From Deuterostichococcus epilithicus (taxonomy: Eukaryota; Chlorophyta; Trebouxiophyceae; Prasiolales; Stichococcaceae): DNA of 64,000 nucleotides. Positions 24,711 through 30,224 of the stretch are shown piece after piece. The position numbers were made by a program, and so were the translations under genes. Where the stretch lies: the NCBI GenBank assembly GCA_033439295.1, contig JAVTLE010000016.1:1240001-1304000 (forward strand), in the 5' to 3' direction. Each line of letters starts with the position of its first letter. The first letter of the stretch is position 1. The notes beneath the pieces are model-generated. The model saw nothing but the letters and a program-made list of their open reading frames with translations. It had not been told where the DNA came from and searched no databases.

Positions 24711-27680
24711 GTGGTGCAGGTGGTGTGGGAGGTGGTGCGGCCGGCCAACCAGCTGACGCTGACGGCGGAGCAGCTGGACGAGGACCTGGCCAAGGTGGAC
24801 TGCTGCTGCTGAAATCCAGGCTGGTCTCGTGTTGGAGAAGGAGGCCGCTGTCTGCGAGGAAGGGCTCCTTGCATGCGCCCCTGTCTGATGCAACATGCGT
24901 CAGGGAGTGCTGCTCTGGGGGTTTTATCTGCAGTGCCGCCGCGTGTGCAGGCCCAGAATGCCAATCAGATCAGGCTGATGTGTGCGAGGCCCCTGCCTGG
25001 CGTCCGCAGGTGCTGGTGGCTACGAACCCCGCCGCCGCACTGGACGGCCACGTGCGGTGGAGCCTGCAGGAGCACGCATGGCTGCCAGGCCCCCCTGCGG
25101 AGCCGGTGCGATATGCTGGATGCATACTGAACACTCTGCGGTGGATCCTATCTGCCTTTCTGACAACTGCAAGGGCCTTGACACCTGCACACCCCACAAG
25201 GCTACCTCATCCCCCCCACCTTCCCATTCCAGCGCCTCGAGCTGACAATGGCGGCCCCACTTGCAGAAATTGCCATTTGCGCATCTCATCTTACCTCTGT
25301 CTGTTTACAAAAACGAACCCAGAACCCTTTCTTCGTACCTGCTGCAGGTTATCAGCCACTACGCCAGTGAGGGGCGCCTCCTCCACCGCTCTGCGCCGCA
25401 GGCGCAGCTGCAGCTGGAGGCGGAAGCAGTCGCACGGGCAGCCCGGCAGGCTGAGCTGGACAGGGTGCGTGTCGGGCAGGCAATCCGGGCAAGCAGCCCC
25501 ACAACCTGCTGCACAGGGACAGCAGGCTGCACACGTGCTTGGTGGAACGGCCTTGCACAGTGGCTCCACATGTCGAGAGGTTGCCGCTGCAGTGCCCCAC
25601 ATGAGCCACAAGGGATCAGCGGCGCGCAATGCTCGTGGGGTGCCCAGCCACATCCCATGGCCGCTGCAGAAGTGAGTCACGAGCCACTCCTGAGCGCGTC
25701 TGGTCGCGGTGGCTAAGACCAGGCGGGTGGAACTGGAGGGGCAAGCCGAGGATGCGTCGGCGGCGGAGGCCGCAGCCGACGCTGAGGCGGTCAAGCCGAC
25801 CGGGGCGGAGGCTGTGGTAGATAGCCCTGCTGAGACGGGGGCCGAGGCAGAAGCTCCCAAACAGGCCGAGGCAGCCAAGCCGATCGCGGCGATCGAAGTA
25901 CATACAGCCGGTCCCCGATACGCAAACGCGCCGCCTGCAGAACCACTTTGACTTCGCCCGACCGGCTGGTGCAGCCGACGCCCGCCCACCGGCCGTGCGA
26001 CGGCGACACGATGACGGAGCCGCCTGTCAAGGCCTCCACCTCCGGTATGCGCTGCGGAGCGGCGCCCTAGTGCTGCACGGTGCAATGCAATCGTGCGCCC
26101 GATCGCTTCACTTGGGCGCATGCAAGTGTGCTCGTATTGGAAGGCTCACAGCGGTCGTTAAACACAGTGCAGAAGCTCAACCCACACAGCCCCACAAGTT
26201 AGCACAGCTCCTTCCATGCACCAAAGCTTGTTGCCAGAGCTTGCCGCCAGCCGCGCTGCCAGTCGCGGTGACCTCGGATAATGCAAATGAGAATGCGCTC
26301 TTTCCGCAGGCTCCTGCTCGCAGCGGGAGATGTATGACGCGTATACTGCGGATCAGGATGCACAACGCAGCATATAGGAGCTGGCCAAGGCGGAGGCTGT
26401 GGCGCGGAAGGCGTCCAGCCGGGAGCGCGCCCGCGCGGCAGAGCTGCAGTCCGCTCTGACGGAGGCCCAGCAGGTGAGCTGCTTGCATGATGGGTCCGCC
26501 CTGGCCCCTAATGAGCCGCACTTCCTGAGTCAAGGCGCTGCGTCCAGACAGCGGCAAGGGTCGCAAGGGGACCACCATGTCACCAGAGACGGCAACATAT
26601 GGTCTTGCGCACACACTATAACTGAGGGTCTGCAGCGCAGCTGTCCTCAGAACAGTGCGGTGACCTGTGCAGTGACTGGCGGCTGACCAAACGGGGTGGC
26701 TTGCATGGGCCTTACTGCACCTGCTGCTGCCGATGCTGTTACAGCTGCGTGGCCCACTAGCTGCTGATTGTCATCTCAGCCCTTGTACCTTGCGCGGCGC
26801 AGGAGGAGGAGCGGGAGCGGCAGCAGGCGGAGCGGCTGCCACCCTCGAGCGCATGGTCAATCAAAACGCCTTCGGCGACATCACCATAGACATGAAGGCG
26901 CGCCCACCTTTCTGTGAACTGCCCAAGATTACTCCAAATTTCTTGTAGGCCACGTGCCCTTTTGCACAACGCCGGAGATCGTGTTGGTCAGCGCCTCGCC
27001 CCTGCTCTGATGGTCCTCTCTGATGGTCAGAGCTGCATGCCTGGCCTGCCGCCTGTCCACAGCGGCCCATCGTGCCGTCATGATTGACTCAGCGAGCCCA
27101 GGGCAAGTGCGCGCACTTGCTGCTTCCCGACTGGAACGTCGCCTCGCAGATGGCAACCGCTGCGCCCAAGCATCAGCAGCCATCGAAGGAAAGCATCAGA
27201 CCGCCGCATGTGGTATATATTTGTTGGCAATGTTGCAGTCATCCCACCTCCGCCCCACCGTCAATAGCTGATCACCCTCGCAAGCCACAACCAACCATCC
27301 GCAAACATTCGCTGCCGCGCAGTACAGGGAGGATGAGTCGGATGCGCTGCGGCCGGGGGAGGGGACGCTGCTGCCGCTGTACCCGCTTCAACCTGCGGGC
27401 CGGACGGCGCGCCAAGACAGTGACGGCGCTCGCATGGCACCCGGCCCATGCCGACTTGTTCGCCGTGGGCTTCGGATCCTTCGACTTCCACTACCAGCGG
27501 CGCGGCGCCGTGGCCTGCTACACGCTCAAGAACCTGGCGTCAACGGAGCACCAGTTCACCGTGGACTGCGGTGCGTTCTCCTGTTTGTCGCATCGCTCTG
27601 CCGTTTGCTGACTGCATATTTTCAGGCGTTTCTGGGTTCGTTCGTGAGGAACCCCCAGCAGGTTGCCGCAGCCTGTGCTC

Positions 27681-27703
27681 CTGCTGCTGCTGCTGCTGCT
27701 GCT
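27681..27703 (+). repeat. (CTG)n microsatellite in a dynein-gene intron
   Basis: About seven uninterrupted CTG triplets sit between two WD-repeat exons of the dynein pseudogene. Confidence 0.85.
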
Positions 27704-28907
27704 GTTTCTGCTTCCTTGTGTGCTACGGTAGAATCTCTCCAGAGGTACGGTATCTGCAGCGAGCATCAAGGGATGCAGGATCGCATCACGTTGCCGCGCA
27801 GGCGCGATGAGCCTGGATTTCAACCCGGAGCAGCCCCACTTTCTAGCCGTCGGGTGTCATGACGGCACCGTCATAAACGTGTGATGGGGTCACATTTTCA
27901 TATGTCTCCATACTTGCCGCTGACATGCTGCCCGCAGCATCCGCAGGCGAGGCGATAAACTTGCATGCAGCTGATGTGGCCAGACTCGTCTGCCCTTCGT
28001 CCCCCAGCTTGACTGATGACCTCTTCTGGTTGTAGTCGAAGCAGCCAGTATGCCGCAGTACAATCATCTGCGGCCGGCATGTCGAGCCGGTGTGGGGCGT
28101 CTGCTGACGGCCCGCAAGTGCAACGCACGCGCTTTGCCAGCGTGTTGGGCGACGGCTACGTCGCGATTCGGATCTTCCACAAAAGACAGCTGCGATGGGA
28201 GGTGCGTTATATGCGTGCACTCAGACTATCGTTTCTGCACCTGTCCAGTTGCAGCCAACTGGCACTCTTGAGCATGGAGCAATTGAGGAGGCGAGGGCCT
28301 TCGATCCCAAAAAAAGGGCCCACGACCATAAGAACCAGTCACTGCGTTTCCCAAGCTGCTCAGGTCGTTCTGTATGCACACATGCAATGTCGAGTGCTGC
28401 AAATGTGCCTGTGAATTTGCAGCACCTCATGCGGCTCGGCAGACTACCTAGTGCGGAGGCGGCTGAGCAGCCTGCAGTTGTGCTGCCAGGCATGGAGCTG
28501 CCTGCTGACGGCGGCTTCAGCTTTTACTTCAGGCAGGTGATCGCAAGCATCTCAAATTAGACATGAAGCACAGGTTCCTTGCTGCTTCTCATCTATAAGC
28601 TGCTGAGACTGCCCAATGCACATTAACATGTGTGGGAAAGTGTGCGCACTGCATCGGGTTGGCGGCGTCAGCGATGGAGCCTTCACGCGTGGCACCCGTA
28701 ACGCATTGCGGGCCGGACTTGGAACCAAATGTATCTCCAGATCTGCCAGCAAGATTACCAGCGGGATGGGTGATGCCAGAAGGCGCCACAACAGCAATGA
28801 CAAAGTCTTGATGCGGATGTGTCTCGCTGTCTGACCCACTGGCGACACCACGAGCTGCGGCATGACCACCAAGACCCGACTGGACCGTTTCTGACCCGCA
28901 GCATCCG

Positions 28908-28942
28908 TACTTGTGGGCACGGAGCAGGGCAGTGTGTACAAG
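28908..28942 (+). repeat. Intronic echo of a dynein exon start
   Basis: This segment, containing GTGGGCACGGAGCAGGG, nearly matches 28993-29028, the start of the exon encoding YLVGTEQGGVHK, about 85 bp downstream. A CCCGCAG acceptor-like site precedes it, but its frame soon meets a stop. It looks like a decayed tandem duplicate of the exon edge. Confidence 0.75.
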
Positions 28943-30224
28943 TCCTCCCGCTGAAAACCTGTTTGTGCATGACCTGATCCCTGCAGGAGACATACCTGGT
29001 GGGCACGGAGCAGGGTGGCGTGCACAAGTGCTTTGCGGTGTACGGCTCAATGTACCTGGCGTCCTACCCGGGCCACACCTGTGCGGTGTATGCAGTGCGG
29101 TGGAACCCGCTGCACCCGCGCACCTTCCTGTCTGTTGGCGCAGACTCCTACGTGCGGCTCTGGGACGAGGCGAAGCCCGACAAGGTGGGGGGCGGCGCAG
29201 GCTATCTTGATGATGGATGTCGTGTGAGGGAAAGCATGGGAGGAGGCAACGTGGTCTGTGCGAAATGCATTTGCGTGTGTGCGGCGCAAGGTGGCGCAGG
29301 CATGACTCATGACGGCATGCCCGGGCATGCCCGAGCATGCTGTTGCCTGGGCATGCTGTCACTTCAAAGTTGCCAATGGCGCACCTCATCCAAGTCGGCA
29401 GTGCAGTCTGACCGCCTCCATGCCGGCAAGCGCAGGCGATACTGAAGTGGGACATGGGGACAGGCATCGCCGCGTGCGACGTGGCGTGGGCACCCTTCTC
29501 TTCTACAGTCTTTGCGGTTGCAAGCGATGATGGAAAGGTGAAGCAGACAGAGTAACAACATGGTCGCTGTCACAACTCGAGACTGGTTCTCTTTTCTAGA
29601 ATGTTCAGACCCTTGATGTTTCTCAGCCTTCTGATGACGCCCCAGTTGTGCAGGACTTCTGGTTGTGATGGCGAACAGGTTTGATGAATATGACCTGCTC
29701 GACACTATGCCACAGGTGCACGTGTACGACGTCAAGGAGGATAAGTTGCAGCCGCTGTGCGTGCAGAAGGTGGTGCGCAAGACGTGCCTCACCAAGATCG
29801 CCTTCAGCGCCGTGCACCCAGTCATCCTGGTTGGCGACGACAGGTTGAGCGCTGCTCAAGCACTTCGTTTCTTCATGCACCATTTGCGTCCTGCGCTGGC
29901 CGCCATCAATGTGAAGATTGCAGCTGTGTGCATCCCCTGCCAGTCCGTTTGAGCATGTTGCACCATACTGATGGCCCTGCCTGCCCATGCCCCGCACAGG
30001 GGCTGTGCGACATCCTGAAGCTGTCGCCCAACCTGCGGCGAACGCCGCAAAACGTGCCGGAGCCTGCAAAGGGGCCAGCAACTGGAATCCCGCCGCCATT
30101 CGGTAAGCCTAACGCCCAGGCAGGCTGGCCAGCGAAGAAGGTCACGCCAGCGGAGGTGGAGGCCGCCAAGATGGAGGCGGTCCTGACTGACATCGCCGAA
30201 CACGGCATCTTCCGGTTTGATTGA

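Follow-up and report, generated by a model that had tools for sequence, protein, structure and literature searches.

A broken gene for outer-arm dynein intermediate chain 1, probably a unitary pseudogene, in the green alga Deuterostichococcus epilithicus

A stretch of 64,000 nucleotides from the genome of the green alga Deuterostichococcus epilithicus (contig JAVTLE010000016.1, positions 1,240,001 to 1,304,000; the whole stretch is called the window here, and coordinates of the locus are window positions) contains a recognizable but interrupted gene for an axonemal protein, outer-arm dynein intermediate chain 1 (IC1, also known as DNAI1 or, in Chlamydomonas, as the 78-kDa chain). This is the single copy found, and it is most probably now a unitary pseudogene, IC1 and its partner chain IC2 both having decayed after the loss of outer-arm-driven motility. 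In the sequence of events that we propose, an ancestor of this alga would have given up motility driven by the outer arms, both chains would then have been released from selection, and the two genes would now be decaying through point mutations and one-base insertions or deletions (indels), with working IC1 and IC2 protein presumably no longer made.

The IC1 locus and its interruptions

On the forward strand, positions 24720-30224 of the window hold 14 exon-like blocks that correspond, in order, to IC1. The blocks were read as DNA together with the three-frame translation of each. The read-through so obtained, 651 residues long and with X at each lesion, was compared with PDB sequences. Its best match was the Chlamydomonas 78-kDa chain (8glv_Aa, E 1.1e-124, 420 bits, spanning Chlamydomonas residues 48-648), and human DNAI1 (8j07_m1) was matched at E 4.9e-105 and 355 bits, while other intermediate chains scored lower (DNAI4 154, IC138 128 and DNAI2 83 bits); a 70-residue piece of the locus already matches axonemal intermediate chains. 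As expected of an IC1 orthologue, the best match is thus to IC1, above IC2, IC138 and the cytoplasmic intermediate chains and across most of the length, and both the N-terminal region and the WD-repeat part lie in collinear exons. An earlier reading of the letters alone (the sequence-only reading) had listed the conserved IC1 blocks as all present in order, and the collinear exons and the span of the match bear this out. In this respect the algal gene is like Chlamydomonas IC1 (PDB 8glv/7kzm) and human DNAI1 (8j07); unlike them, its frame is broken at several places and conserved residues are lost. Identical residues number 235 of 569 aligned between the alga and Chlamydomonas and 212 of 575 between the alga and human, compared with 274 of 581 between Chlamydomonas and human.

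We modelled the gene with a purpose-written aligner that fits protein sequences to spliced DNA; it accepts introns of the GT-AG and GC-AG types as well as frameshifts and stops that are read through, and charges less for a GT-AG intron than for a lesion. The exons, with the basis for each where it applies, are as follows.

24720..24794, + strand: exon, PxNQLxLT block (VRPANQLTLTAEQLDEDLAK); start approximate
25010..25105, + strand: exon (VLVATNPAAA...PPAEP); spliced aligner, GT..AG flanks
25348..25464, + strand: exon (VISHYASEG...AELDR); spliced aligner
25875..26044, + strand: exon with LQNHFDFA / DRLVQ / TEPPVKAS; spliced aligner, start differing from the frame of the sequence-only reading
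26310..26473, + strand: exon (SCSQREMYDAYTADQ...TEAQQ); frames and genome match, the aligner's own 3' end being 26445
26803..26897, + strand: exon (EEERERQQAE / AATLERMVNQNAFGDITIDMK), probably with a shift near 26842; 3' end at a non-consensus GC donor (GCGCGC) at 26898
27323..27570, + strand: exon (YREDESDALRPGEGTLLPLY / RFNLRAG...FAVGFGSFDF...TVDC); genome match and aligner
27802..27878, + strand: exon (GAMSLDFNPEQPHFLAVGCHDGTVIN); spliced aligner
28042..28201, + strand: exon (QPVCRSTIICGRHVEPVWGVC / RFASVLGDGYV...LRWE); frames and aligner
28423..28536, + strand: exon (HLMRLGRLPSAEAAEQ...FSFYFRQ); spliced aligner
28987..29184, + strand: exon, WD segment (ETYLVGTEQGGVHKC...VRLWDEAKPDK); protein match and aligner
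29436..29537, + strand: exon (AILKWDMGTGIAACDVAWAPFSSTVFAVASDDGK); spliced aligner
29716..29843, + strand: exon (VHVYDVKEDKLQPLC...VILVGDD); spliced aligner
30000..30224, + strand: last exon (GLCDILKLSPNLRR...HGIFRFD, stop); frame mismatched to the phase of the preceding donor

The main run used a profile of three references and a lesion penalty of 20. With introns free, the aligner still left five lesions in IC1 (a shift at 25956, the TAG at 26375, and shifts at 27386, at 28105, where the TGA lies, and at 30013, downstream of the phase mismatch at 30000), and the score of 636 fell to 542 when all lesions were forbidden, a cost of 94 units. A robustness set of 12 runs combined four references with three penalties (15, 20 and 30). 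None of the 12 was lesion-free, each keeping at least one lesion, and the open spliced reading frame of a functional gene was recovered in none of the runs that permitted lesions. The shift at 27380-27395 recurred in 12 of 12 runs, that at 25956-26010 in 11, that at 30010-30013 in nine, the TAG in seven and the 28105 shift in four. With the four references, the excess of free over strict score at penalty 20 was 97, 75, 50 and 88. The lesions that could be assigned to short intervals are these.

25955..25959, + strand: shift by one base in GCCCGAC, after NHFDFA and before DRLVQ; its placement (25956-26010) varies with the reference
26375..26377, + strand: in-frame TAG; frame reading and aligner, seven of 12 runs
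27380..27386, + strand: one-base frameshift in TACCCGC; frames and aligner, 12 of 12 runs
28105..28107, + strand: TGA at a family Trp; frame reading and alignment
28108..28129, + strand: one-base frameshift, movable within about 28105-28129; frames and aligner, four of 12 runs

The sequence-only reading had claimed eight interruptions, of which six were confirmed, one is probable and one is not needed. The TAG is in frame, between ...AQRSI and ELAKAE..., and is used by the aligner. The TGA is also in frame; in the alignment it falls on the second Trp of PVWQIYWQP, the Chlamydomonas sequence, so that the second Trp of the Chlamydomonas PVWxxxW motif is a stop in the alga. The shifts near 25957, 27382 and 28111 were each called by the aligner, and the phase mismatch at 30000 could be avoided in its models only via a GC donor at 29851. 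The probable case is the shift near 26842: all eight AG dinucleotides in 26791-26833 give one exon phase, and the aligner's one way around the shift is to insert a non-conserved micro-exon (26552-26601). Not needed is the shift at 25913, since the aligner places an intron of 410 bases upstream and begins the exon at 25875; we rejected it as a lesion because this alternative acceptor removes it, a shift nearby (25919) being placed in one of the 12 runs (human reference, penalty 15).

Apart from these lesions, the intron that precedes the exon at 28987 contains a degenerate 37-nucleotide partial copy (84%) of the start of that exon, at 28910..28946 (+), followed by a stop.

The partner chain and other axonemal genes

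We searched the 46.8-Mb assembly with the IC1 read-through and obtained 18 matches at E 1 or better, 17 of them in the IC1 locus and one elsewhere (WD40, E 0.044). The search for a second, intact IC1 that the sequence-only reading had advised thus found none, nor any other intact homologue, in this assembly, and within it the gene has the lack of an intact second copy that defines a unitary pseudogene.

The partner chain is not intact either. Human DNAI2 as query gave seven matches, six of which are IC2 exons (G000:C14:1579904-1582543) and the seventh IC1. The IC2/DNAI2 orthologue to which these exons belong (G000:C14:1579638-1583166) lies on the contig that carries IC1, some 310 kb away from it, and its model of 480 codons carries three frameshift calls, at 1579905, 1581967-1581973 and 1583090-1583093, two of which appeared in nine of nine runs and the third in seven of nine. 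A fourth shift, at 1581027-1581033, was left uncounted because only four of the nine runs contained it. Forbidding lesions in IC2 cost 57, 25 and 36 units with the three references at penalty 20, and two to three lesions remained at penalty 30.

The heavy chains of the outer dynein arm were not recovered with the two Pfam families and one protein piece used as queries: in the assembly, AAA_6 gave no matches at E 0.001 and one candidate, Dynein_heavy gave no matches at E 0.001 and no candidate, and a heavy-chain AAA1 piece gave no matches at E 10. Likewise, no matches were found in the assembly for the axonemal light chain p28 family (two candidates) or for the DNAAF3 C-terminal family. The same tool returned 91 kinesin matches and also found IC2 and HAP2, which indicates that genes split by introns, as well as diverged ones, are findable by this search.

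On the other hand, all six DM10 matches fall in one RIB72/EFHC1-like gene with three DM10 domains (G000:C3:986858-990972). With a human reference this gene showed no lesion at any penalty. Human and urchin references together gave a single shift at penalty 15, which scored no better than the model without lesions, and no shift at the two higher penalties (20 and 30); urchin alone gave one shift at both 15 and 20. The conserved block NLMQKHRIVLRFG, near 990033-990085, could not be fitted to a clean exon. We describe the gene as largely open and do not claim that it is intact. With the gene for this doublet protein still largely open, the set of axoneme genes has not simply vanished. Of the other axonemal genes, by whose state the sequence-only reading had suggested that loss of motile cilia might be judged, IC2 is broken, heavy chains, p28 and DNAAF3 are unmatched and the RIB72-like gene is largely open; the loss itself is supported by the lack of a second IC1, the shifts in IC2 and the unmatched heavy chains.

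The HAP2/GCS1 gamete-fusion family has two matches in the assembly (G000:C12:70964-72806; E 8e-7 for one and, for the other, 6.3e-4, this one being interrupted by internal stops), and gamete fusion may on this account persist without dynein motility.

Control genes, substitution rates and competing explanations

As controls we ran 19 kinesin motor loci from the same assembly through the same aligner, together with the aspartyl aminopeptidase of the window; the kinesin loci are 19 of 23 match clusters, the four omitted ones having a single match in two cases and a pair of matches in the other two. At penalty 20 the kinesins gave four lesion calls in 5883 codons, confined to two of the 19 loci, and forbidding lesions cost nothing in 17 of them and 16 and 1 units in the other two. 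Lowering the penalty to 15 gave ten calls in 5885 codons (six of 19 loci), and raising it to 30 gave one in 5881. The aspartyl aminopeptidase, which the sequence-only reading had named as error-free, was indeed clean (no lesions in 464 codons at any penalty, and no cost of forbidding them). For UBTD and PIH1, named in the same way, no stop or shift was called, but their models were poor at the ends and contained implausibly long introns, for which reason both were kept out of the control count. Compared with four calls in 6347 control codons, IC1 has five in 576, IC2 three in 480 and the two chains together eight in 1056 (Fisher p 3.7e-4, 0.0098 and 4.8e-5, respectively), p values that serve as guides because codons are not independent draws and because the controls were aligned with one reference each and the chains with profiles. 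The weak GC donor at 26898 of IC1 was not counted as a lesion, since the models of the 19 kinesin loci also contain 15 GC donors. Among the kinesins, the locus at G000:C10:1604000-1607500, a diverged or decaying kinesin, is the only one whose stop call survives penalty 30.

With Chlamydomonas as the nearest organism compared, 108 changes in IC1 are alga-only and 45 are Chlamydomonas-only when human is the outgroup (p 3.7e-7), and 86 and 58 when 9e5c_7h is (p 0.024); for IC2 the numbers are 79 and 46 (p 0.004). Such an excess of alga-only changes would fit relaxed selection. The sequence-only reading had also called the loss recent. This is not established, as alga-only changes in IC1 already exceed Chlamydomonas-only ones, and we infer recency solely from the conservation between the lesions.

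The nearly clean control genes make assembly error unlikely as a general cause of these interruptions. If assembly or consensus errors were nonetheless responsible, the gene would be intact in the cell and the indels would be base-calling errors in short G/C runs, and the placeable frameshifts are indeed single-base and lie in or beside such runs. We consider this improbable, however, because two of the IC1 interruptions (TAG 26375 and TGA 28105) are in-frame stops rather than indels, because the controls show so few calls for their length beside the two chains, and because the absent heavy-chain matches would be left unexplained. An intact gene with unusual splicing, in which the stops and shifts are spliced out by way of small extra introns or non-canonical sites, can be modelled, as the strict alignment with its score of 542 demonstrates. 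Yet that model pays the 94 units given above, needs a 44-base GC-AG intron (26367-26410) and puts unrelated residues in place of conserved blocks (the RFASVLGDGYV block, for example, is lost), whereas 17 of 19 kinesins incur no such cost, and we regard it as very improbable. Hardly any weight attaches to the suggestion that the assembly holds one broken allele of a heterozygous diploid whose other allele is functional, since even a working allele would be left without a complex when IC2 is shifted and the heavy chains are unmatched.

A different history for the same broken genes is that the intermediate chains outlived the motor, the heavy chains being lost first while IC1 and IC2 were kept for some other task and decayed later. 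Heavy chains are more conserved than intermediate chains, and joint release from selection should therefore leave the clearest remnants in heavy-chain exons, where none was seen. The largely open RIB72-like protein would be compatible with a microtubule structure that had no dynein, did not beat and was retained for a time. On balance we think this order of events unlikely, and prefer the decay of IC1 and IC2 after the loss of outer-arm-driven motility.

Several observations nevertheless weigh against this preference. Heavy chains without a trace, while both intermediate chains are readable, are a poor fit to it, which deletion of the heavy-chain loci or an earlier loss of the heavy chains would explain; moreover, the empty heavy-chain, p28 and DNAAF3 searches included no genome in which those queries are known to match. 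A largely open RIB72-like gene would be unexpected if selection had been lifted from all axonemal genes. The position of the placeable frameshifts in or beside short G/C runs is of a type that sequencing errors also make, and single lesions are softer than the set, penalty 30 leaving one to three in IC1. For IC2 the lesion-free model costs only 26, 2 and 10 units at penalty 30, to be set beside 16 units for the worst control at penalty 20, and because it is so cheap IC2 is a weaker case than IC1 and is held less firmly. Finally, the relative-rate test carries no control for a generally fast lineage.

Comparison with other green algae

Passages of PMC12633428 (citing Blanc et al. 2010) describe C. 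variabilis as having outer and inner dynein arm genes, with most or all intraflagellar transport (IFT), radial spoke and central pair genes absent; outer-arm subunits of this species are also mentioned in a passage of PMC4168999, and in the passages of both papers these dynein-arm genes, with other flagellar genes, are discussed as a hint of cryptic ciliated stages. For C. vulgaris, a passage of PMC6972661 reports 114 of 195 CiliaCut genes, likewise discussed as such a hint. Judged by these passages, our alga, itself a green alga, shares with Chlorella the remnants of an outer-arm set and differs from it in that both of its intermediate chains are broken and its heavy chains are unmatched, whereas the Chlorella genes are counted as present. 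Non-flagellate species, according to a passage of PMC7455551, lack the dynein heavy chains DHC1-7 and the proteins of the central pair, along with most of those of IFT and of the radial spokes. As far as that passage describes them, the alga resembles these species in having no heavy-chain match and differs in that its two intermediate chains are still recognizable, as probable pseudogenes. With heavy chains unmatched, intermediate chains broken and the HAP2 family matched, its genome lies between the cited cases.

In passages of PMC12633428, PMC4168999 and PMC6972661, flagellar genes of flagella-less green algae, including in the first two papers dynein-arm genes, are used as evidence for hidden flagellate gametes. 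Here both chains are detectable by similarity and yet broken, so that presence in a similarity search is not the same as functional presence. No published report of broken dynein intermediate chains in an alga was found among titles and the starts of abstracts, a scope outside which subscription papers mostly fall. Loss as such is to be expected; this genome offers a place in which to read the order in which a cilium decays.

The alga is photosynthetic, and PsaB from its plastid contig C21 (211 kb; 33% GC in the 8 kb read) has its highest PDB score against 9kqp_B (1563 bits), followed by 6igz (Bryopsis, 1543 bits) and by 6zzx (Chlorella ohadii) and 6ijj (Chlamydomonas), both at 1536 bits. As a minor observation from the same assembly, the match to plastid psaA (G000:C21:139151-142539) is in two pieces about 1.2 kb apart, and the gap looks like an intron.

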